A program made the position numbers and the translations under genes. A stretch of 64,000 nt of DNA from Chitinophagaceae bacterium (GTDB lineage: Bacteria; Bacteroidota; Bacteroidia; Chitinophagales; Chitinophagaceae): contig JANINS010000003.1 of NCBI GenBank assembly GCA_024508725.1, positions 620,001-684,000 on the forward strand, given 5' to 3'. The notes beneath the pieces were generated by a model that saw only the letters and a program-made list of their open reading frames with translations, was not told where the DNA came from and did not search any database. Shown here in pieces: positions 53,445 through 63,917 of the stretch (positions within the stretch are counted from its first letter, which is position 1; every line of letters begins with the position of its first letter).

Positions 53445-54683
53445 ATGTACAGCAAGATCGTATTAAGCTTTTTATTATTTATCAGTCTTTGCAGTTTTGC
53501 GCAGGACACTACATCATCCGACGGACTTTTTCAGTTAGCCCGTAAAGCAGCATTCGACGAAAAGAATTATCCCAAAGCAATCGAACTAAGCAGAAGAGCT
53601 TTGGATATCTCTCCCAAATATTCCGATATCAGGATTTTTCTTGGAAGAGTGTATACATGGAGCAACATGTACGATAGTGCAAAAGCTGCTTATGAGTATG
53701 TATTGAGTTATGATGCTGCATACGAAGATGCTTATGCTGCTTATACTGATCTTGAATACTGGAATGATCATAATGAAGCTGCTTTAAAGCTGGTGAATGC
53801 CGGATTAACGCATCATCCCAACTCCGAAACACTGTTACTAAAGAAAGCGAAAGTGCTATTCGCATTACGACGTTTCCAGGAATCGGCAGATGCAGTAAAT
53901 GATGTTCTAAAGATCAATAAAGCCAACACAGAAGCAAGGGCTTTTGCTGAACGATTAAAAGAAGCTGTTGCAAAAAACAGGATCGGCATCAGCTATAGTT
54001 ATACAACCTTCGATAAACAATTTGCTGATCCATGGCATATCCTCAGCTTCGATTATGGCAGGCAAACAAAACTCGGTTCCTTCGCAGCAAGGATCAATTA
54101 TGCCAATCGCTTTAAACAAAACGGACTGCAATACGAAGTGGATATGTATCCTCGTATCAATAAAACTTTCTATAGCTATGTGAGCTTTGGTTATTCGGAT
54201 GATGTAGGCGTTTTTCCAAAGTACAGGGCAGGATTTTCACTCTATGCTAATCTTCCTAAAAGTTTTGAAGCCGAGGTTGGAACAAGGTATCTCTATTTCA
54301 CCGATGCAACATGGATCTACACATTATACTTAGGTAAGTATTACAAGAATTTTTTGTTTGGTGCAAGAACATATCTCACACCTTCAAGCAACAGGGTTTC
54401 GCAATCGTACAATTTAATGGCGAGATATTATTACAGTGGTAATGCCGATGATTATCTACATGTCAACATCGGAACAGGTATTTCACCTGATGATCGCCAA
54501 TCTGCCATTCTCATTAACAGCAATTACAAATTGGTAAGTAATAAAGCTTCGCTTGATTGGAGAAAATCGTTCAACAGATTAAACATTTTAGGTTTATCAG
54601 CAGGTTGGGTAAACCAGGAATATCTTCCCAAAACAAAAGGTAACCAATACGAGTTTGGCATCTCATACCAAAGAAGATTCTGA
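53445..54683 (+). CDS. TPR + beta-barrel outer membrane protein (YaiO-like)
   Basis: Encodes 412 residues with a signal peptide (about 1-20, CSFAQ), about four tetratricopeptide repeats (residues 25-175: AAFDEKNYPKAIELSRRALDISPKYSDIRIFLGRVYTWSNMYDSAKAAYEYVL and more), then a C-terminal beta barrel (about 180-412) ending SYQRRF with a terminal aromatic. This matches the YaiO family and the general plan of PgaA, the exporter of poly-N-acetylglucosamine, in which TPRs in the periplasm guide a polymer to a barrel. It overlaps the next gene by one base (TGATG). It converges on a synthase-like operon on the opposite strand. Confidence 0.82.
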   Translation: MYSKIVLSFLLFISLCSFAQDTTSSDGLFQLARKAAFDEKNYPKAIELSRRALDISPKYSDIRIFLGRVYTWSNMYDSAKAAYEYVLSYDAAYEDAYAAYTDLEYWNDHNEAALKLVNAGLTHHPNSETLLLKKAKVLFALRRFQESADAVNDVLKINKANTEARAFAERLKEAVAKNRIGISYSYTTFDKQFADPWHILSFDYGRQTKLGSFAARINYANRFKQNGLQYEVDMYPRINKTFYSYVSFGYSDDVGVFPKYRAGFSLYANLPKSFEAEVGTRYLYFTDATWIYTLYLGKYYKNFLFGARTYLTPSSNRVSQSYNLMARYYYSGNADDYLHVNIGTGISPDDRQSAILINSNYKLVSNKASLDWRKSFNRLNILGLSAGWVNQEYLPKTKGNQYEFGISYQRRF

Positions 54684-55843
54684 TGTGGAAGAAAAAATAT
54701 AACCGCTATATTCTTTACGCTATTCTACTTACTCCTTTCTGGATGTGGATGGCATGGGTGCTTACTCCAAAGAAAAAATTGATGGTAGGCATCATTGATA
54801 AAACGGTGCTCACAAAAAAGGGACAGGAACATATTTCTTTGATGTGGGTATTGAATCATGAAAAATTTGCAAAGATCAACAACGACCTGTACGAAACACA
54901 GCGAGACTACTTCGGCTTTTTCCCTTTAGGTAATGAGAAATATAAAGTGAAAGGTCTTGAACGTTTTTCTTCAGCAAAGCTGAACCAGCTAAGCGAAGAT
55001 TGCGACATGGCTTATCTCACCGATGCGTATGGCATTTATAATAATGAATGGTATCAACGAAAAAATATCACTGAGAGATCGGGTATTGTTTATGGCGGAA
55101 TGAGCCAGCAGGATCTTGATTTCCTTCTTAAAATGAAGCAGAAAAAGAAGTTGGTGATTGCCGAATTCAATTGCCTGGGATCACCAACATCGATCAATGT
55201 TAGATCCGGTTTTGAAAATGCGTTTGGAATGAAATGGACCGGTTGGATCGGTAGATATTTCGATATATTGGATACAGCGATTAACCAGGAACTTCCAAAA
55301 TGGCTGGTGAATAATTATATCGCTCAGCATGGAGGCAAGTGGCCTTTTAAAAAGAGCGGAATTGCTTTTGTAAGAGAAGATGATCGTGTGGTGATACTCG
55401 AAAATCAAACGCATCTGAGTTATGAGTTACCCCAAATGTTCAGCAGGGCAAAGGCGATAGAGGAATATGATCTGCCAAAGAAGATCAATTATTCTTTTTG
55501 GTTTGATATAAATACAGTTGATACATCAGTAAATGAAGTATTAGCCGATTTTAAAATTCCTGTGAATAAAGCCGGTGCTACAGAATTACAGAAAGAAGGC
55601 ATCCCACAAATATTTCCTTCGATTATATCCCACAATAAAGAAGATTATAAGTTCTGGTATTTCTGTGCTGATTATTGCGACAACCCGATCAGCAATATTT
55701 CTTCATACTTTAAAGGAATATCTTTTTTTAGAAGGATGTTTTACAACACAACAGATCCGGCTGAACGAAGAAATTTCTTCTGGAATGTATATCGACCTCT
55801 TGTTACAAAGATCCTCGATGATTACCAGGAAACATTGAAATAA
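54683..55843 (+). CDS. Membrane-anchored protein of unknown function in the polymer locus
   Basis: Encodes 386 residues. One N-terminal helix (about 9-27) anchors a periplasmic or external part of about 355 residues. Conserved-looking patches are DYFGFFP, DMAYLTDAYGIYNNEW, LVIAEFNCLGSPT, GWIGRYFDIL and FYNTTDPAERRNFFWNVYRP. The MAYLTD and LVIAEFN strands have the look of a class I glutamine-amidotransferase or Rossmann-like fold, but I do not recognise the family. Its start overlaps the YaiO-like stop. It ends exactly where the opposing glycosyltransferase fusion gene ends (55843/55844), with no gap. It occupies the place of a polymer-modifying or docking partner. Confidence 0.6.
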   Translation: MWKKKYNRYILYAILLTPFWMWMAWVLTPKKKLMVGIIDKTVLTKKGQEHISLMWVLNHEKFAKINNDLYETQRDYFGFFPLGNEKYKVKGLERFSSAKLNQLSEDCDMAYLTDAYGIYNNEWYQRKNITERSGIVYGGMSQQDLDFLLKMKQKKKLVIAEFNCLGSPTSINVRSGFENAFGMKWTGWIGRYFDILDTAINQELPKWLVNNYIAQHGGKWPFKKSGIAFVREDDRVVILENQTHLSYELPQMFSRAKAIEEYDLPKKINYSFWFDINTVDTSVNEVLADFKIPVNKAGATELQKEGIPQIFPSIISHNKEDYKFWYFCADYCDNPISNISSYFKGISFFRRMFYNTTDPAERRNFFWNVYRPLVTKILDDYQETLK

Positions 55844-58800
55844 CTATTTGATCGTTGCAGAATCCGGAACCAACTTAAGACTGCCATTCACTTTTGCATT
55901 CTTTGATTTGAACTGGTCAAATGCTGCTTTTAACTGAGCCTGCTTTTTACTGTCATTTTCCATCTTCATGTCCATGTTCGGCTGAATGCTGTACAATTGT
56001 TCGCCGCTGAGCCAATAGTTGCCCATCATGAAATCTACTGTCTCGAGCTTTGTTTGAATAAATGGATAAGCATGAATATTCCTGAAGTTCTGAGCTGTAT
56101 CAATTCCGCTTCCCATCCAACTTGCAACAGCCGGAGGTTTTACACCATAGTTTTTAAGCCAGTTGAGTAATGTGGGCACCACATCAAGATGTGTTGATAT
56201 AGATGAAAATTGTGCGGTTCTTTTCAATAGCGGCGAATAAATAATAAACGGAACATGGTACCTGTCAAGCCTTGTTGCCATTGGTATTTCCGGCATTCTA
56301 TGGTCTCCTGTAATAATGAAAATGGTGTTGGCGTATTCAGGTTTTGATTTATACCCTTCGATCAGATCTCTTACAGCATCATCAGCAAAAAGAACACTGG
56401 CATATTGTGCCTTATATCTTCTTGCTGCATCCATTTGCTCAGGAGTGAATTTTAGTTGCCGCATTCGCTGCTCAAATCTTTTGTTGTACTCATCCATGTT
56501 GTTGATGAGAAACGGACTGTGAGTAGATACGGTAAGAATGATATCACAGAAAGGTGCTTTTTGCTGAGATGAGAGATATCTTCTTATCAATTCCTTATCA
56601 CCATAACCCCATGTAAACCCAAGTGACGACTGTGGCATTTTCTGGTATCCCGATGGAAAACTTTTCTCATCATATACAGCAACACCATTTCGTTGAAGGA
56701 ATAAATTCATGAAATCAAAAGAAGCATCACCACCATAATAAAACGATGAGTTGTATCCCTGTGTTTTAAGAATACTCATCAACGATTGATGTGGCGGCAT
56801 TTGGTCTTTCAACTCAGTGAATCCACTTTGCCCATAAGGAAGCGAAGCAGTTAATGAAGGCAACATTCCAAATGTTCTTCCACTGGCACTTAAGAAATTC
56901 TCCCAGTATAAACTTTTAGAAGATAAAGAATCAATATATGGAGTAAAGTTACCAAGGTATGCACCTTCATTCGTGAAAGCTCGTCCTAAACCTTCTACTA
57001 CAACAAAAACAATATTGGGTTTTGTCGGAGCAGTATTGAAAAAAGGTGACAATACATCTACAGTTGTATCAACAGTGTGCAGGAAAGGATATTCACTTTC
57101 ATTTACATAATTGAACTTCGCTATTGTAGTGTTTTCTTCCACTTCACCCGAAAAGATATCATCATAAATATCATAATCGTTGGTAGGAAAGAAATGTCTG
57201 AAACTTTGTGTGTAAAAGAAGTATGATTTGTTAGTGGTAAGATTGTTACTGTACTCCTGCTGCGTCATCAGAGAGTTGGTGGTACGAGCAAAGCGAAACG
57301 TAAACCCAATAGCAAGTATTAGTAGTAATGTTAAAGAGAATACCCTGGCAGGCTTAATCTTTTTTGAAACAAATCCAATCGCAAAAGCAATGGAAGCGAT
57401 CATTAATAAAGAGCCGAGTACAGTCCACACATTCAAAGCTCCGGAAGCTCCTATCGTTTGATTGATATCTTTCCACGAATACGCCCAAACATCAGAACCC
57501 AAAGGAACCAGTGTTGATACAAAATAGTACACCAATCCCGCCTGCACTACAACTGCAATCGTTCCAACAGCAATAAAGAAAATGGAAGCTATTTTCTTGC
57601 TCAAAAGATATAACAGGCAGAAAGAAAAAAACAACCAGATACCATAAGACAAAATAAACGACACATCCTTTACCAGGCTAAGTAATATCACTTCTGTTAC
57701 AGATGCAGGTGCTTCGTGGAGTTTGATGTTGATAATGATCTCTGCTGTTCTTACAAGCAGGAACAGTATCGCTAGTGGAATAAAATGAGCAACAAAAGAT
57801 CTCGCAGCTCCAATAATCTTCTCAATGAAACCTGGCTGGACTGTTTCTTCTTTACGAGAAACAGCAACAGGTGTGGGTTGAGCTGCAACAGGACTTATGG
57901 CTTGCTCTGTTTGCTTTTGTAATATTCCCGGTTGTATTTCTGCAACAGTTGGAGTTGCCTGGGGCTGAGCAGGTGTTGCACCAAAACCCTGCCTTGTCAT
58001 TTCGCCCCAGCTTTTCTTTTTGCGTAACAGATCAATGTAACCCATCACCCCATGCCACACAACAAATGGATGAAACCGGAAAGGCTCGGTTAAACCTGTA
58101 AGCAAAAGTTTCATTACATCCGTTCGCCGTTTGTACTGATTGTAAGTAAGCACTTCCATCAATACAGCGAAAGCTGAATAGGTATAACCGAATGAAATAA
58201 TGAAAGCAAGGAAAAGAAAAAAAGTACTCCAATCGATCACACCAAAAAAAGACATTATAAGTAAGGCGATAAATCCAAGAAACTCAATGGCGGGAGCACA
58301 CATTTCGAAAAAGAACCAATAAGGATAACTCAACATGCCTAATATCCCATACTTGGGATTAAAGAACATTTTTTTATGTATCTGCAGTGTTTCTATCGTG
58401 CCTCTTGTCCACCGGTTTCTTTGACGACCTAATATTTTATAAGAGGCTGGCGCTTCTGTCCAGCATAAAGGATCAGGAATGAAAGCAACTTTGTATGGCT
58501 CGTTCCGCTCTTCCATATAACGTCGCATTCTTACTACTAATTCCATGTCTTCGCCAACAGTGTTATGGTTGTATCCACCACATTTAATTACGATCTCTTT
58601 ATCAAATGCACCAAAAGCACCGGAGATCAAAAGCAGTCCATTCAACCGGCTCCAGGCCATTCTGCCAAGTAAAAATGCCCTGATGTATTCCAACACCTGC
58701 ATACGAGGCAGGTATTGTTCCGGCAAACGAACTTTTAATAACTTACCATGTTCAATCACACAGGAATTAGCGATCCTTACTACACCACCGGTAGCGATCA

Positions 58801-59389
58801 CTTTTACTTTTGTTTCCTCTATAAATGGTTTGGTGAGCTTTAATAAAGCATCCTGCTCCAGTACACAGTCAACATCAATGCAAACAATATAATCGTTAGA
58901 GGCGATGTTAACACCAACATTCAAAGCATCGGCCTTTCCGCCATTCATCTTATCAACAACAACCAGCTTTTTATAAACCGGGTTGCTGCTTTTATAAATA
59001 CCTCTCACTTCTTTCGTAGGTATCTGGTATCTCACGAAATAATCGATCTTCTTCAGGTCATAAGCCTTGATCAGCTTAGCCATCGTATCATCTTTACTGC
59101 CATCGTTGATGATAACCACCTCGAGATTACTGTAATATATAGAGAGCAGTGAACGGACATTCTCAATGATCGTTGCTCCTTCATTATAAGCAGGTGCTAA
59201 GATGCTGAGCGAAGGAACGTGTGGTGAAGAAACCAATGTTCTATAATCAGTAAAACTGTTCTTATTGATGTAATGCCTTGCATCTCCGGTTGAGTAAATG
59301 GCAATGAGTATATAAAAAAGCAACAGTGTTACCGAATAGGTAAATATTGCATAAGTGATGAAGTCATATATAAATACCTGCCAGCTCAA
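55844..59389 (-). CDS. Fused processive glycosyltransferase (GT2) and LtaS-like phosphotransferase
   Basis: Encodes 1181 residues. Residues 1-460 are a membrane GT2 of PgaC/cellulose-synthase type: D96 (INDG), D172-x-D174, E280-D281 and Q323-x-x-R-W, so all catalytic motifs are present, with flanking helices. A Pro/Ala/Gln-rich linker (about 468-520) leads to five helices (about 533-700) and an LtaS-like domain of the alkaline phosphatase superfamily. Metal and nucleophile residues are E799, T839 (GRTFG), H957 (THSPF), D1029-H1030 (GDHR). LtaS adds glycerol phosphate from lipid donors to an acceptor, so one protein may build a polymer and decorate it with phospho-groups. The start is a TTG overlapping the HEAT gene stop. 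Confidence 0.85.
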   Translation of the reverse strand: MSWQVFIYDFITYAIFTYSVTLLLFYILIAIYSTGDARHYINKNSFTDYRTLVSSPHVPSLSILAPAYNEGATIIENVRSLLSIYYSNLEVVIINDGSKDDTMAKLIKAYDLKKIDYFVRYQIPTKEVRGIYKSSNPVYKKLVVVDKMNGGKADALNVGVNIASNDYIVCIDVDCVLEQDALLKLTKPFIEETKVKVIATGGVVRIANSCVIEHGKLLKVRLPEQYLPRMQVLEYIRAFLLGRMAWSRLNGLLLISGAFGAFDKEIVIKCGGYNHNTVGEDMELVVRMRRYMEERNEPYKVAFIPDPLCWTEAPASYKILGRQRNRWTRGTIETLQIHKKMFFNPKYGILGMLSYPYWFFFEMCAPAIEFLGFIALLIMSFFGVIDWSTFFLFLAFIISFGYTYSAFAVLMEVLTYNQYKRRTDVMKLLLTGLTEPFRFHPFVVWHGVMGYIDLLRKKKSWGEMTRQGFGATPAQPQATPTVAEIQPGILQKQTEQAISPVAAQPTPVAVSRKEETVQPGFIEKIIGAARSFVAHFIPLAILFLLVRTAEIIINIKLHEAPASVTEVILLSLVKDVSFILSYGIWLFFSFCLLYLLSKKIASIFFIAVGTIAVVVQAGLVYYFVSTLVPLGSDVWAYSWKDINQTIGASGALNVWTVLGSLLMIASIAFAIGFVSKKIKPARVFSLTLLLILAIGFTFRFARTTNSLMTQQEYSNNLTTNKSYFFYTQSFRHFFPTNDYDIYDDIFSGEVEENTTIAKFNYVNESEYPFLHTVDTTVDVLSPFFNTAPTKPNIVFVVVEGLGRAFTNEGAYLGNFTPYIDSLSSKSLYWENFLSASGRTFGMLPSLTASLPYGQSGFTELKDQMPPHQSLMSILKTQGYNSSFYYGGDASFDFMNLFLQRNGVAVYDEKSFPSGYQKMPQSSLGFTWGYGDKELIRRYLSSQQKAPFCDIILTVSTHSPFLINNMDEYNKRFEQRMRQLKFTPEQMDAARRYKAQYASVLFADDAVRDLIEGYKSKPEYANTIFIITGDHRMPEIPMATRLDRYHVPFIIYSPLLKRTAQFSSISTHLDVVPTLLNWLKNYGVKPPAVASWMGSGIDTAQNFRNIHAYPFIQTKLETVDFMMGNYWLSGEQLYSIQPNMDMKMENDSKKQAQLKAAFDQFKSKNAKVNGSLKLVPDSATIK

Positions 59390-60483
59390 AATGTCATCTC
59401 GGCTTTTACGTGTTGATATATTTGTTGATACGGTTCAGGATTTTCAGCAGCTTTTTCTTCAAGCAATTTTATGCTTCCAAGTTCCGCCATTGCTTTGGCT
59501 GCAGCCAGCTTAAGAAAATCATTTTCATTTTCAAGTTCATGCTGCAAAAAAGGAATATGTGCTTCTGAACCGATCTTGTGAATTTGCTGAAGGATGTTGA
59601 TCCTATTGGTGAATCTTTCCTGCCTGTATTGCTGTATCATTTTGCCGGCACTGTTTTCATCGCCGATCTTGGCCAATGTAGCCACAGCTTGTATCCGCAC
59701 TTTTTCATTTGTATGGAAAAGACATTCCTCCACTTTATTTTTTACCTGGAATTGTTGGTAAACTTCCGATAGCTTTAAAGCAAAGATCACCACCGTATCG
59801 TTGGGAGATGAAAGCCATTGCTGCATTTTCGGCATGTCTTGCTGAGTAAAATTCTTTAGCTGTACCAATAGTTGAACCTGTTGCCATTCGCTAATGTCAT
59901 AAGATGCTATATTCAAAAAACGAAGACCGTTAAATCCCGACCAGTGAATGATGGCTGCTTGTGCCTCGTTACGAACAAGATCATTCTTACTATTGGTTAA
60001 CCGGTAAACCCTGAGCAGTTGATCATTCTGATCCATGATGGCCAGCTCCTGAATGCCTTTGGCTTTTATATACCAGAAGTTGCTTTGCAGTTTTTTAAGT
60101 GAGTCTTGTTTAAAGCCAAGTTCTTCGTACAACTGACGAATGTTATTGGCTACAGATCCTGAAAAAGTTTTTTTATTGGTGATGAGATTTTCTATCGCAT
60201 AATCTCTCGCTGCTTTTGTTTTAAAGAGCCGCTGAAATTTTTCGGGGATCCTGATCTCTTCATCATCATCTGCAAGGATCACATTGCTGATCCAGAGTTC
60301 AAGATTTTTTTTGATCCTTTCTTTAAAAAAGAAAGCCCTTTTCTTAAGCCCCAGGTATAAGTATGTAAAGAATACTATTGAAAATGTGATGCAAAGAAAG
60401 AACACCACGCAACTGATAAGCGTTTGCGGCGTGATGTATTGCTCGAATGCTGTTTTAAAATGGTTCTGAAACAGGAAAACCAA
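59386..60483 (-). CDS. Membrane-anchored HEAT-repeat protein
   Basis: Encodes 365 residues. One helix (about 22-46) is followed by a basic stretch and a cytoplasmic alpha-solenoid; HEAT-like repeats are clear at the C-terminal end (KVRIQAVATLAKIGDENSAGKMI and NDFLKLAAAKAMAELGSIKLLEE). The start is a TTG at 60483, as no in-frame ATG lies upstream before a stop. It overlaps the fused GT2-LtaS gene by four bases and follows a receiver gene by 34 bases. HEAT scaffolds usually bind partner proteins; here it could tie the receivers to the synthase at the membrane. That is inference. Confidence 0.7.
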   Translation of the reverse strand: MVFLFQNHFKTAFEQYITPQTLISCVVFFLCITFSIVFFTYLYLGLKKRAFFFKERIKKNLELWISNVILADDDEEIRIPEKFQRLFKTKAARDYAIENLITNKKTFSGSVANNIRQLYEELGFKQDSLKKLQSNFWYIKAKGIQELAIMDQNDQLLRVYRLTNSKNDLVRNEAQAAIIHWSGFNGLRFLNIASYDISEWQQVQLLVQLKNFTQQDMPKMQQWLSSPNDTVVIFALKLSEVYQQFQVKNKVEECLFHTNEKVRIQAVATLAKIGDENSAGKMIQQYRQERFTNRINILQQIHKIGSEAHIPFLQHELENENDFLKLAAAKAMAELGSIKLLEEKAAENPEPYQQIYQHVKAEMTF

Positions 60484-60517
60484 TGTATACCCCTTCTTTG
60501 TTTCGTGTTGTAAACTC

Positions 60518-60883
60518 CTAACCTTTTTTGGCCAGTCTTTTAATACGGATGCTTAACTCACTTAAGCTAAATGGCTTTTTCAGGTAATCATCTGCACCAA
60601 GTTCGAAAGCCTCTTCCACGATATTCTCCTGCCCCATTGTAGAAAGTACAATTACCGGAATATTCTTCTGCACATCATCCTGCTTTACTTTTCTCACTAC
60701 TTCCAGGCCAGACATATATGGCATCATAATATCTGTGATCACCAGGTCTGGTTGTTCTGCATCTATTTTTTGCAAGGCATCCAATCCATCGGTACAACCA
60801 ATTACATCATATCCTTCCTTCTTTAGCTTAAGCTCTAAAGTTTGCAAAATCAAAGGCTCATCCTCTGCTATAAGGATCTTCAT
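60518..60883 (-). CDS. Stand-alone response regulator receiver (REC) 1
   Basis: Encodes 121 residues, a bare receiver domain with no output domain. Acidic pocket D8-E9 (AEDEP), phospho-Asp51 (VITDIMMP), Thr/Ser near 82 (VLSTMGQ) and Lys near 103 (YLKKPF) are all present, so it should take up phosphate. It is closely related to the next upstream receiver; both start MKILIAEDE with near-identical DNA. It lies between that gene and the HEAT gene in an apparent operon. Confidence 0.92.
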   Translation of the reverse strand: MKILIAEDEPLILQTLELKLKKEGYDVIGCTDGLDALQKIDAEQPDLVITDIMMPYMSGLEVVRKVKQDDVQKNIPVIVLSTMGQENIVEEAFELGADDYLKKPFSLSELSIRIKRLAKKG

Positions 60884-60912
60884 ATCTGTTTTACTTTACT
60901 TACAAAATAAGT

Positions 60913-61275
60913 TTATTTACGCTTCAAAAGACGCCTTACTCTTAAACTCAGTTCAGTTGGATTGAAAGGTTTGGTCAGAAAATCATCAGCACCCAGGTTG
61001 AATGCTTCTAACACGGTTGCTTCCTGCCCCATGGCAGATAAAACAATTATGGGAGTATTTGGTTCAGAATGAGACCTGATAGTAGCTATCAGCTCTAAAC
61101 CGGTAGCATAAGGCATTAGTATGTCGGTTATCACCAGGTCTGGTGTATGATTCTGAAAAAGTTCAATGGCTTCCTGTCCGTCAGTTGCAATAATAACTTC
61201 GTATCCATCGTCTTCCAGATTCTTTTGCAGTACAGCAAGCATCATTGCCTCATCTTCTGCTATAAGGATCTTCAT
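60913..61275 (-). CDS. Stand-alone response regulator receiver (REC) 2
   Basis: Encodes 120 residues, receiver only. D8-E9, phospho-Asp51 (VITDILMP), Ser near 82 (VLSAMGQ) and Lys near 103 (FLTKPF) are conserved. It looks like a paralogue of REC 1; the first 27 bases of the two genes differ at a single visible position. Gap to REC 1 is 29 bases. Duplicated receivers may tune or branch the same signal. Confidence 0.92.
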   Translation of the reverse strand: MKILIAEDEAMMLAVLQKNLEDDGYEVIIATDGQEAIELFQNHTPDLVITDILMPYATGLELIATIRSHSEPNTPIIVLSAMGQEATVLEAFNLGADDFLTKPFNPTELSLRVRRLLKRK

Positions 61276-61334
61276 AAGTATATTTTCAAGTCAATGAAAA
61301 TACCTGTTTTTACTTCAAAAAAACAAAAATGCTA

Positions 61335-61736
61335 TCAGGCACGGAGTTGTGCAGGAGATATAAATTTAGCTAAAGCCGATGTGAGTGCCTCGATAGTAAA
61401 AGGTTTGGGTACAGAACCATTCATCCCAACCTGGCGAAACTTTTCGTCTTCTGTACTGGCTGGAAGTGCTGTCATCGCAAGAATAGGTGTTTGGAGCTTT
61501 AGTTCGTTACGAATGATGGCTGTGGTTTGATATCCGTCCAGTTCAGGCATGTGGATGTCCATCAAAATAACATCGTAACTGTTCTCATGAAGTTTTTCCA
61601 AAGCTTTTGTACCTGTATCACAGATATCAATATCGGCTCCGGAAGAAGAGAGTGTATATTTTACCAGCATCTGGTTGATGGCGTTGTCTTCAACAAGCAG
61701 TATATGTTTACCTGAGAGGAAATCGGGGGTTTCCAT
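61335..61736 (-). CDS. Stand-alone response regulator receiver (REC) 3, hybrid-kinase type
   Basis: Encodes 133 residues. A short leader (METPDFLSGK) precedes a receiver with LLVEDNAINQMLVKYTL and phospho-Asp60 (ILMDIHMPELDGYQTT), Thr (ILAMTALPAS) and Lys (VPKPF). This is the style of receivers found at the end of hybrid histidine kinases, unlike REC 1 and 2. It is the first gene of the leftward five-gene unit. It resembles the receiver of the hybrid kinase at 17286, with a similar VEDN.IN and DI.MPE.DG pattern. Its kinase is not identified. Confidence 0.9.
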   Translation of the reverse strand: METPDFLSGKHILLVEDNAINQMLVKYTLSSSGADIDICDTGTKALEKLHENSYDVILMDIHMPELDGYQTTAIIRNELKLQTPILAMTALPASTEDEKFRQVGMNGSVPKPFTIEALTSALAKFISPAQLRA

Positions 61737-61898: not shown

Positions 61899-62630
61899 AT
61901 GAAAAGAACGCTTTCGCTGCTTATTTTATTGGCTTCAGCCAATGTTTTGTTCGCACAGGATAGTACTCAATCACCTCAGAAGATCAATGTCAGCATTTCA
62001 GAAAGAGGAAGCGATCATCTTTTGATCCAATATGGATATACCGGCTGGGCCGGAACTCCTGACAGCATCAACACCAGTGGTTTCTCGAGGCATTTCAATA
62101 TTTACTTCATGTTCGATAAGCCTTTTAAAACCTCTCCTAAAATGAGTGTAGCTTATGGTGTAGGTATTGGAAGCGATAATATCTTTTTCAAGAACACTTA
62201 CATTGATGTAAAGAATACAGGAGCAACACTTCCATTCAAAAATGTTGCAGCAGCTGATCACTTTAAAAAGTATAAGCTCACCACCATCTATCTTGAAGCA
62301 CCAGTTGAGTTGAGATTCACTTCTAACCCCAATCAGCCTAACAGCTCTTTCAAATTTGCTATCGGAGCCAAGGTTGGAACCATGCTGAAAGCTTTCACGA
62401 AAGGTAAAGACCTTCAGAATGCTTCTGGAACCAGCTTATACGGTAACAGGTACATTGTAAAAGAATCTGAAAAAAGATTCTTTAATGGAACAAGATTAGG
62501 CGTAACGGCAAGAATGGGTTATGGTATTTTCTCACTCCACGGTTCTTACCAGATCACTCAATTGCTCAAGGAAAACACAGGGCCTGAGATTCGTCCGTTT
62601 ACGATTGGTTTAACCATAAGCGGTTTATAA
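61899..62630 (+). CDS. Outer membrane beta-barrel protein
   Basis: Encodes 243 residues. The signal peptide ends NVLFAQ (about residue 20). The rest is a beta-rich sequence with repeated aromatic/Gly strands (KMSVAYGVGIGSDNIFF, FKFAIGAKVGTMLKAF, RLGVTARMGYGIFSLHGSYQI) ending RPFTIGLTISGL. It is in the same general class as the 11325 barrel, small PorT-like proteins of Bacteroidota, but no specific role is known. It is divergent from the receiver operon and closed by a good terminator, so it is transcribed alone. Confidence 0.75.
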   Translation: MKRTLSLLILLASANVLFAQDSTQSPQKINVSISERGSDHLLIQYGYTGWAGTPDSINTSGFSRHFNIYFMFDKPFKTSPKMSVAYGVGIGSDNIFFKNTYIDVKNTGATLPFKNVAAADHFKKYKLTTIYLEAPVELRFTSNPNQPNSSFKFAIGAKVGTMLKAFTKGKDLQNASGTSLYGNRYIVKESEKRFFNGTRLGVTARMGYGIFSLHGSYQITQLLKENTGPEIRPFTIGLTISGL

Positions 62631-62650
62631 TAACAACTAAAATGATTGTG

Positions 62651-62685
62651 AACCCTGTTGGTGAATGCCGGCAGGGTTTTATTTT
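62651..62685 (+). terminator. Intrinsic terminator of the beta-barrel gene
   Basis: AACCCTG (62651-62657) pairs with CAGGGTT (62672-62678). The stem extends inward by GG/CC and two G/T pairs, and TTTTATTTTT follows. Confidence 0.85.
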
Positions 62686-62727
62686 TATGGCATTTCTTTT
62701 TATACAGAAAGATCAAACAAATCGAAA

Positions 62728-63917
62728 TTGATAGAGAAACAACAAAAGATACAGCAGGAAGAAAGAGCAGTGCTGGTGGGCGTTATCCAGAAAGAACAAA
62801 CGCAGGAACAGGTGTATGAATACCTGGATGAATTAGCATTTTTAGCTGAAACAGCCGGAGCCATTGCTGTAAGAAATTTTACCAAAAGCTTCCGCATCCT
62901 GATAGCAGAACCTTTGTAGGAAAAGGTAAGTTGGAAGAGATCAGGGATTATTGCAACGGAAAAAATATCGATCTATTGATATTCGATGATGAACTCACCG
63001 GTTCTCAAATTCAGAATATTGAAAAGGAAACAGGTGTAAAAACCATTGACAGAAGCGATCTTATCCTCGACATTTTTGCAAGAAGGGCAAGAACAGCACA
63101 GGCAAAAGTGCAGGTTGAGCTGGCACAATATCAATACCTGTTACCCCGATTAAAAGGAATGTGGAAACACCTGGAACGGCAAGGTGGTGGTATTGGCACA
63201 AGAGGTCCCGGTGAAACAGAGATCGAAACCGACCGCCGTATTGTGAAAGACAAGATCTCTCTATTGCGGAAACGACTCCAGGAGATCGATAAACAATCAT
63301 TTACACAAAGAAAAGATCGTGGAGAGTTCATCAGGGTGGCATTGGTTGGTTATACCAACGTTGGAAAAAGCACTTTAATGAATTTGCTAACGAAGAGTGA
63401 TGTTTTTGCCGAGAATAAATTGTTTGCAACGCTGGATACCACTACAAGAAAAGTGGTTTTTGAAAATACGCCTTTTTTGCTGAGCGATACAGTAGGTTTC
63501 ATTCGAAAATTACCGCATCACCTGGTAGAAAGTTTTAAAAGCACCCTTGATGAAGTAAGAGAAGCAGATATCCTGTTGCATGTAGTGGATATTTCTCATC
63601 CGCAACACGAAGAACAGATCGGGGTGGTGAATAAGACTTTGCAGGAGATCGGTGCTTTTGAAAAGCCCATTCTCACCATCTTCAATAAGATGGATATGTA
63701 TGCAGAAAAGAATTTTGATGAGTGGCTGGAAGATGAAGTGAAAGAAGATATTCTTCGTGAACTGCACGAAAAGTGGACTAATATCACCGAGGGGAATGCC
63801 GTTTTTGTTTCAGCTACAGAGCGGCAAAACATTGATGAGCTTAGAACTAGGATACTGAATAAAGTGAAAGATCTTTATACCATCAGGTATCCTTATAAAA
63901 CAGAATATCTGTATTAA
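62728..63917 (+). pseudogene. hflX: GTPase HflX with an apparent one-base deletion
   Basis: The reading frame is broken. The first part (from the TTG at 62728) reads IEKQQKIQQEERAVLVGVIQ...YLDELAFLAETAGAIAVRNFT and then stops at 62917-62919. In the next frame the protein goes on as QKLPHPDSRTFVGKGKLEEIR and matches HflX to the end (GPGETEIETDRR; G1 GYTNVGKST; DTVGFIRKLPHHLVESFKSTLDEV). A single missing C in ACC(C)AAAAG near 62882 would restore one frame of about 396 residues. HflX is a ribosome-splitting GTPase used in stress. It may be a sequencing or assembly error, a real mutation, or rarely a shift signal. Confidence 0.85.

Follow-up and report, generated by a model that had tools for sequence, protein, structure and literature searches.

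A locus of seven genes in a Chitinophagaceae bacterium is best explained as part of a so far undescribed kind of synthase-dependent exopolysaccharide secretion in Bacteroidota, in which a phosphorelay acting through a HEAT-repeat protein would switch the synthase and the polymer would be decorated at the membrane; we put the probability of this reading at about 0.68. The locus lies at 53445-61736 of the 64,000-nucleotide stretch analysed here (the window; assembly GCA_024508725.1, contig JANINS010000003.1, positions 620,001 to 684,000), and its centrepiece is a single protein that joins a glycosyltransferase of family 2 (GT2) to a part resembling the lipoteichoic acid synthase LtaS. Far less is known about the matrix polymers of Bacteroidota than about those of Proteobacteria.

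Layout of the locus

Seven open reading frames were found at exactly the coordinates given in the original prediction, which had been made from the DNA letters alone. The minus strand carries, in order of transcription, three receivers (REC3, REC2, REC1), a HEAT protein and the fusion, and the plus strand carries a TPR-YaiO barrel and an anchored protein:

53445..54683, plus strand: TPR and YaiO outer-membrane beta-barrel protein, 412 aa (PF19413, TIGR04390, TPR_19; signal peptide); predicted polymer export pore
54683..55843, plus strand: periplasmic protein anchored in the inner membrane, 386 aa (modelled with a GATase1-like fold); predicted glycan-binding partner
55844..59389, minus strand: GT2-LtaS fusion, 1181 aa, TTG start (complete GT2 motifs and LtaS-type active site; alignment of nine fusions)
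57974..59389, minus strand: GT2 synthase part of the fusion, aa 1-472 (hyaluronan synthase fold; kinship to PgaC)
57836..57973, minus strand: disordered linker of the fusion, aa 473-518 (predicted local distance difference test, pLDDT, <50 over 473-518)
55844..57835, minus strand: LtaS-like part of the fusion, aa 519-1181, five transmembrane helices and an alkaline-phosphatase-fold ectodomain (PF00884, fold matches)
59386..60483, minus strand: membrane-anchored HEAT-repeat protein, 365 aa (PF13646, transmembrane segment, gene position); predicted coupling subunit
60518..60883, minus strand: REC1, stand-alone receiver (PF00072, 1.3e-30; phospho-acceptor residues intact by eye)
60913..61275, minus strand: REC2, stand-alone receiver (PF00072, 3.3e-32; phospho-acceptor residues intact by eye)
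61335..61736, minus strand: REC3, stand-alone receiver of hybrid-kinase type (PF00072, 1.6e-24; best NCBIfam match the BarA receiver region)

The genes are tightly packed. REC3, REC2, REC1 and the HEAT gene are spaced by 59, 29 and 34 bases, the HEAT and fusion genes share four bases (TTGA), the YaiO and anchored-protein genes overlap (TGATG), and the two convergent sets abut at 55843/55844 with the zero gap that had been reported for them. Pfam and NCBIfam agree in assigning GT2, Sulfatase/LtaS, YaiO, HEAT_2 and three Response_reg domains, leaving the 386-residue anchored protein as the only one without a family in either.

A GT2 synthase fused to a probable LtaS-like transferase

The N-terminal part of the fusion combines membrane helices with a complete set of processive-type GT2 motifs (D96, D172/D174, E280-D281, Q323/R326/W327), as in synthase-dependent secretion, and its model (aa 10-475) matches hyaluronan synthases with Z of about 25 (25.8). 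Among the three E. coli GT2s tested its nearest relative was PgaC (26% identity, E 3e-27), and the GT2 profile also picked up YaiP (42 bits). The NCBIfam equivalog cut-offs for PgaC (123.9 of 422.3 bits) and CelA (28.8 of 699 bits) were both missed.

In the C-terminal part, five transmembrane helices precede an alkaline-phosphatase-fold ectodomain in which the catalytic set of LtaS is complete (E799, T839, H957, D1029-H1030); in both parts, every active-site residue named in the original prediction stands at its predicted position. The PF00884 match scores 108.7 bits, and the model of residues 767-1178 matches 3lxq (Z 33.4) and LtaS (Z 30.7-32.4), with VP1736 and LtaS/LtaP as the best matches. 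Of four E. coli alkaline phosphatase (AlkP) superfamily proteins that were profile-tested only OpgB was detected (37 bits, E 9e-13); BcsG and EptB were not, yet a Bcs complex entry containing BcsG is among the fold matches. The equivalog models of LtaS (NF053595, 49.1 of 970 bits) and OpgB (29.1 of 574 bits) were again missed. The whole fusion was modelled with a pLDDT of 76, and its transmembrane segments, counted in and out, suggest a cytosolic linker and a periplasmic ectodomain.

A complete LtaS catalytic set on an LtaS fold (Z 31-32) would also suit a teichoic-acid-like or glycolipid pathway, in which the GT2 would supply a lipid anchor bearing a short glycan, on which the LtaS-like part would polymerise glycerol phosphate. 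We consider this quite improbable: in the fusions the FYNR motif of LtaP reads FDFM, with an invariant Asp (D892) replacing the aromatic residue, the match to NF053595 is distant, the GT2 fold is of the processive synthase type, and the TPR barrel would go unexplained. Going by the S. aureus structure, the FYNR positions are presumably the glycerol-phosphate contact in LtaS, and the earlier proposal that this part adds glycerol phosphate is not borne out, the contact motif not being conserved.

The Pfam name Sulfatase, and the many sulfatases that match the fold with Z of 24-27, raise a further alternative, namely that the LtaS-like part acts as a hydrolase, trimming groups or taking them off where a transferase would add them. 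This is highly improbable, given that VP1736 and LtaS/LtaP are the best matches in both fold and sequence, that the nucleophile is a Thr in GRTF and not within the sulfatase motif C/S-x-P-S-R, and that the five-helix N-terminal domain is like that of LtaS and BcsG. A true sulfatase is ruled out by the same nucleophile motif and best matches.

The fusion is labile and recurrent

We scanned 197 genomes of the family and found relatives in 93, weaker GT2 and LtaS kin included. Nine other Chitinophagaceae loci (L036-L043 and L063) bear GT2-LtaS fusions of 1162-1221 aa, one of which ends at a contig edge, and further fusions occur in Sphingobacterium, Chryseobacterium, Kaistella and Empedobacter (from a scan of named genomes) and in some Flavobacterium; in loci L158-L160 the fusion spans 1260-1270 aa and includes an extra TPR domain. 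These cases rule out an assembly artefact or chance fusion. Most other LtaS-bearing relatives encode GT2 and LtaS as separate neighbouring genes: neighbourhoods at 40 of the family loci are fused, split with GT2 and LtaS adjacent, or have a GT2 without LtaS, and among 140 sampled GT2 loci there are 27 fusions, 53 cases with LtaS in the vicinity and 60 without it, such that fusion or vicinity holds in 80/140.

The GT2 tree rejects monophyly of the 18 fused GT2s of the nearest clade (approximately unbiased test, p-AU 7.8e-6), as well as a grouping of the window fusion with the other Chitinophagaceae fusions (p-AU 7.7e-6). Since the fused GT2s do not form one clade, the fusion has been gained or lost repeatedly, gain and loss being indistinguishable here, and one ancient fusion kept ever since is ruled out. 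Judged from these sequences, the fusion is labile and recurrent across relatives; together with the frequent vicinity of GT2 and LtaS, this is as expected of two proteins that act on one substrate. The nearest GT2 of all, in a same-genus draft genome (L044, 4763-6187), is 88% identical but only 474 aa long, and no LtaS follows it; its end falls shortly past the conserved WGEMTRQGF motif.

Two other Chitinophagaceae loci (L073:7977-13991 and L074:8015-13983) hold a second LtaS-like/GT2 pairing, in which a distant LtaS-like paralogue (810 aa, ~30% identical) is divergent to an adjoining 1150-aa protein with GH18, polysaccharide deacetylase and GT2 domains.

Barrel and anchored protein

The barrel protein scores far above the YaiO family cut-offs (PF19413, 245.7 bits against 23.9; TIGR04390, 192 against 32), and has an N-terminal hydrophobic segment at residues 1-19 as well as the TPR_19 match. 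The window thus encodes both elements of a TPR and outer-membrane beta-barrel exporter, and a YaiO gene lies near the GT2 in 123/140 loci.

This vicinity bears on another explanation, that the product is a periplasmic, non-exported, phosphoglycerol-substituted glucan like the osmoregulated periplasmic glucans (OPGs), with the GT2 in the role of OpgH beside an OpgB-like transferase and the barrel serving something else. A GT2 with an OpgB-type transferase is the logic of OPG synthesis, and OpgB was the sole AlkP-superfamily protein to be detected. We nevertheless regard this as unlikely, in view of the recurrent YaiO neighbour, of PgaC and YaiP being the best GT2 matches among those tested (OpgH was outside the test set), and of the finding that no OpgG/OpgD-like gene occurs among the Pfam-scanned locus proteins.

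For export of a decorated polymer, a further observation comes from Flavobacteriaceae, whose LtaS proteins carry a C-terminal TPR domain resembling that of the barrel, an arrangement that would suit a polymer being passed on from decoration to export. Maribacter-type loci (L083, L085, L120 and others) likewise encode LtaS proteins that end in a TPR domain.

The anchored protein, for which a PDB sequence search returned no meaningful match, had been described as unrecognised; modelling (pLDDT 85.4) and fold search now reveal a recognisable GATase1/CBM87/GIFT-like alpha/beta/alpha fold. Its top Foldseek match is Agd3, with GH42 and ThuA-like proteins also high, and the VIA Z-scores are 13.2 for Agd3 146-363 (CBM87), 14.2 for the GATase-like domain of GH42, 12.7 for an OST48-type chain and 12.3 for IFT52. 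Among the residues kept in 90% of its relatives there is no Cys, whereas many Trp, Tyr and Asp are conserved; a class I glutamine amidotransferase is ruled out by the lack of a conserved Cys nucleophile. In Agd3 the CBM87 domain, whose GATase-like fold is devoid of the catalytic residues, is what binds exopolysaccharide (PMC7229062), and sugar binding has been proposed for the GIFT domain of OST48/Wbp1 (PMC7226087). With such a fold, no conserved Cys and conserved Trp, Tyr and Asp, a glycan-binding role is the likeliest, and our best guess from the model is that the protein binds glycan.

In an assembly labelled Bacillaceae, a domain of this kind lies beside a GT2 and is fused to ~700 residues (L148:11382-14651), an extension with no useful-score match in Pfam, NCBIfam or PDB.

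A proposed phosphorelay directed at a HEAT protein

The HEAT protein has a transmembrane segment at residues 16-47, followed by six K/R. In 129/139 loci its gene is the one immediately upstream of the GT2, in the same orientation; the median overlap is 4 bases, and 120 of the gaps fall below 30 bases. In a reverse search, the HEAT profile matched 57/197 family genomes, nearly always beside the GT2; the matches away from it were on separate contigs of draft assemblies (G130, G047, G194), along with one weak second match (G042). Longer HEAT proteins of 700-1187 aa, whose long extension has no domain matches, occur in the Maribacter-type loci mentioned above.

REC domains are found nearby in 124/140 GT2 loci, with a stand-alone receiver in 112/140 and a large, hybrid-kinase-sized REC protein in 76/140. 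Domain scans of three such large proteins showed them to be HPt-bearing hybrid histidine kinases, and the relatives of REC3 in L046 and L063 have a C-terminal HPt domain. The hybrid kinases and HPt domains of related loci imply that the window holds the output end of a phosphorelay whose kinase is not encoded next door. The receivers had appeared to be partnerless, which is a local state only, given that about half of the related loci encode a protein of hybrid-kinase size.

A conserved core with a plug-in module

The arrangement of (hybrid kinase), receiver, HEAT, GT2 and TPR-YaiO is kept across Bacteroidota, and the cluster recurs in Flavobacterium, Maribacter, Chryseobacterium, Sphingobacterium, Pedobacter and Chitinophagaceae. 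Flavobacterium johnsoniae (L102), for example, has the receiver, YaiO, HEAT and GT2 genes and no LtaS close to them. Gene comparisons suggest that receiver, HEAT, GT2 and YaiO form a core unit, to which LtaS and the anchored protein are added as a plug-in module. In the family, the anchored protein is present in 19/21 genomes with GT2 and LtaS and in 0/8 without LtaS (Fisher 1e-5), and tree-independent pairs favour the association by about 7:0 (median p 0.016, range 0.004-0.22). The association is looser outside the family, with fusions lacking the anchored protein in Sphingobacterium and Chryseobacterium, and with a myxococcal locus (L155) that has the anchored protein and lacks LtaS. The expectation that the seven genes stay together therefore holds for the core and fails for the full set, whose LtaS and anchored protein come and go. 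In one variant (L069-L072), tandem GT2s, a 950-aa YaiO protein with long TPR and a DUF4838 protein (GH20/GH67-like) replace LtaS and the anchored protein.

At 61899-63917 the window borders the locus with genes for an outer-membrane-like protein of 243 aa and an hflX-like GTPase. The same border recurs in about nine genomes, so some of the synteny is plain chromosome order, and the genes might be neighbours by inheritance only, the receivers and HEAT protein belonging to another pathway. We find this the least credible alternative, as the cluster persists with differing flanks across Bacteroidota, and partially in Myxococcota, and as most loci have HEAT and GT2 genes that overlap or directly adjoin.

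A model of synthesis, decoration and export

Beyond the domains, catalytic residues, predicted folds, recurrent fusion and conserved gene coupling described above, we infer processive synthesis, a decoration reaction, a switch and export, which would proceed as follows. The GT2 part would polymerise sugar at the cytosolic face and extrude the chain across the inner membrane. The LtaS-like part, tethered by fusion or elsewhere by gene adjacency, would move a phospho-group from a membrane lipid onto the emerging chain at the periplasmic face, where the anchored CBM87/GIFT-like protein may bind or guide it, and the TPR-YaiO barrel would take the polymer across the outer membrane. The phosphorelay of hybrid kinase, HPt and receivers would act on the membrane-bound HEAT protein, and thereby on the synthase, not on DNA.

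Several observations weigh against this model. Many loci have no LtaS, among them 8/29 family genomes with a close GT2 orthologue (including L044); the barrel in the window is on the opposite strand, and gene vicinity is no proof of joint export; the glycerol-phosphate contact motif is replaced and so does not fix the donor lipid or the transferred group; and the GT2 scores so far under the cut-offs for PgaC and CelA that it points to no particular polymer. Of the outline in the original prediction, a surface glycan, phospho-decoration in the periplasm, export through a TPR barrel and two-component control are well supported by conservation, whereas the glycerol-phosphate identity and the fixed seven-gene unit are not.

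A bolder version, that this is a widespread unnamed secretion type with a post-translational HEAT-phosphorelay switch in place of cyclic di-GMP (c-di-GMP), a repeatedly fused decorator and a new phospho-substituted exopolysaccharide, we advance tentatively, at somewhat less than even odds. The cluster itself predicts an exopolysaccharide that bears phospho-groups, a synthase under the control of receivers without DNA-binding output, and a GATase-like glycan-binding subunit.

Comparison with known systems

A search of open-access text, which leaves room for a description in subscription papers, found no literature on the locus or on a YaiO-family exporter in such a role. Together with the missed PgaC, CelA, LtaS and OpgB cut-offs and the kinship to yaiP/yaiO, this points to a variant of a synthase-dependent exopolysaccharide system, in which the control module and the recurrent synthase-transferase fusion are, on the best explanation, what is new.

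The uncharacterised yaiS-yaiP-yaiX-yaiO locus of E. coli, of whose yaiP/yaiO the present locus is kin, shares a GT2 close to a YaiO barrel, but its YaiO has 257 aa, and deacetylase and acyltransferase genes stand in place of LtaS, HEAT and receivers. PgaABCD shares a PgaC-like GT2 and a TPR barrel, whereas neither a PgaB deacetylase nor PgaD is found in the locus, and the equivalog scores are low (GT2 124 of 422 bits, barrel 27 of 367 bits). LtaS and OpgB have the same five transmembrane helices, ectodomain fold and E/T/DH/H catalytic set; the part described here differs in being fused to a GT2, in its replaced glycerol-phosphate contact motif and in scoring far under both equivalog cut-offs. 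The anchored protein shares with the CBM87 of Agd3 and the GIFT domains of OST48, IFT52 and GldG a glycan-linked GATase1-like alpha/beta fold in which no catalytic Cys is conserved, and differs from them as a stand-alone, membrane-anchored protein of ~10% identity outside the Pfam and NCBIfam families.

The nearest experimentally known parallel is BcsA-BcsG of E. coli, in which BcsA recruits the five-helix transferase BcsG, modifying nascent cellulose (PMC11470070). Bcs type II (BcsA, BcsG and BcsC) likewise couples a GT2 to a five-helix AlkP-fold decorator and a TPR barrel exporter. Here, in contrast, the transferase is fused and not recruited, it belongs on the LtaS/OpgB side, and control would be by receivers and HEAT, with no PilZ, BcsB, BcsZ or c-di-GMP module detected by Pfam or NCBIfam among the locus proteins of the window. 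With synthase and decorator naturally joined in a 1:1 ratio, co-synthetic decoration would be easy to reconstitute.

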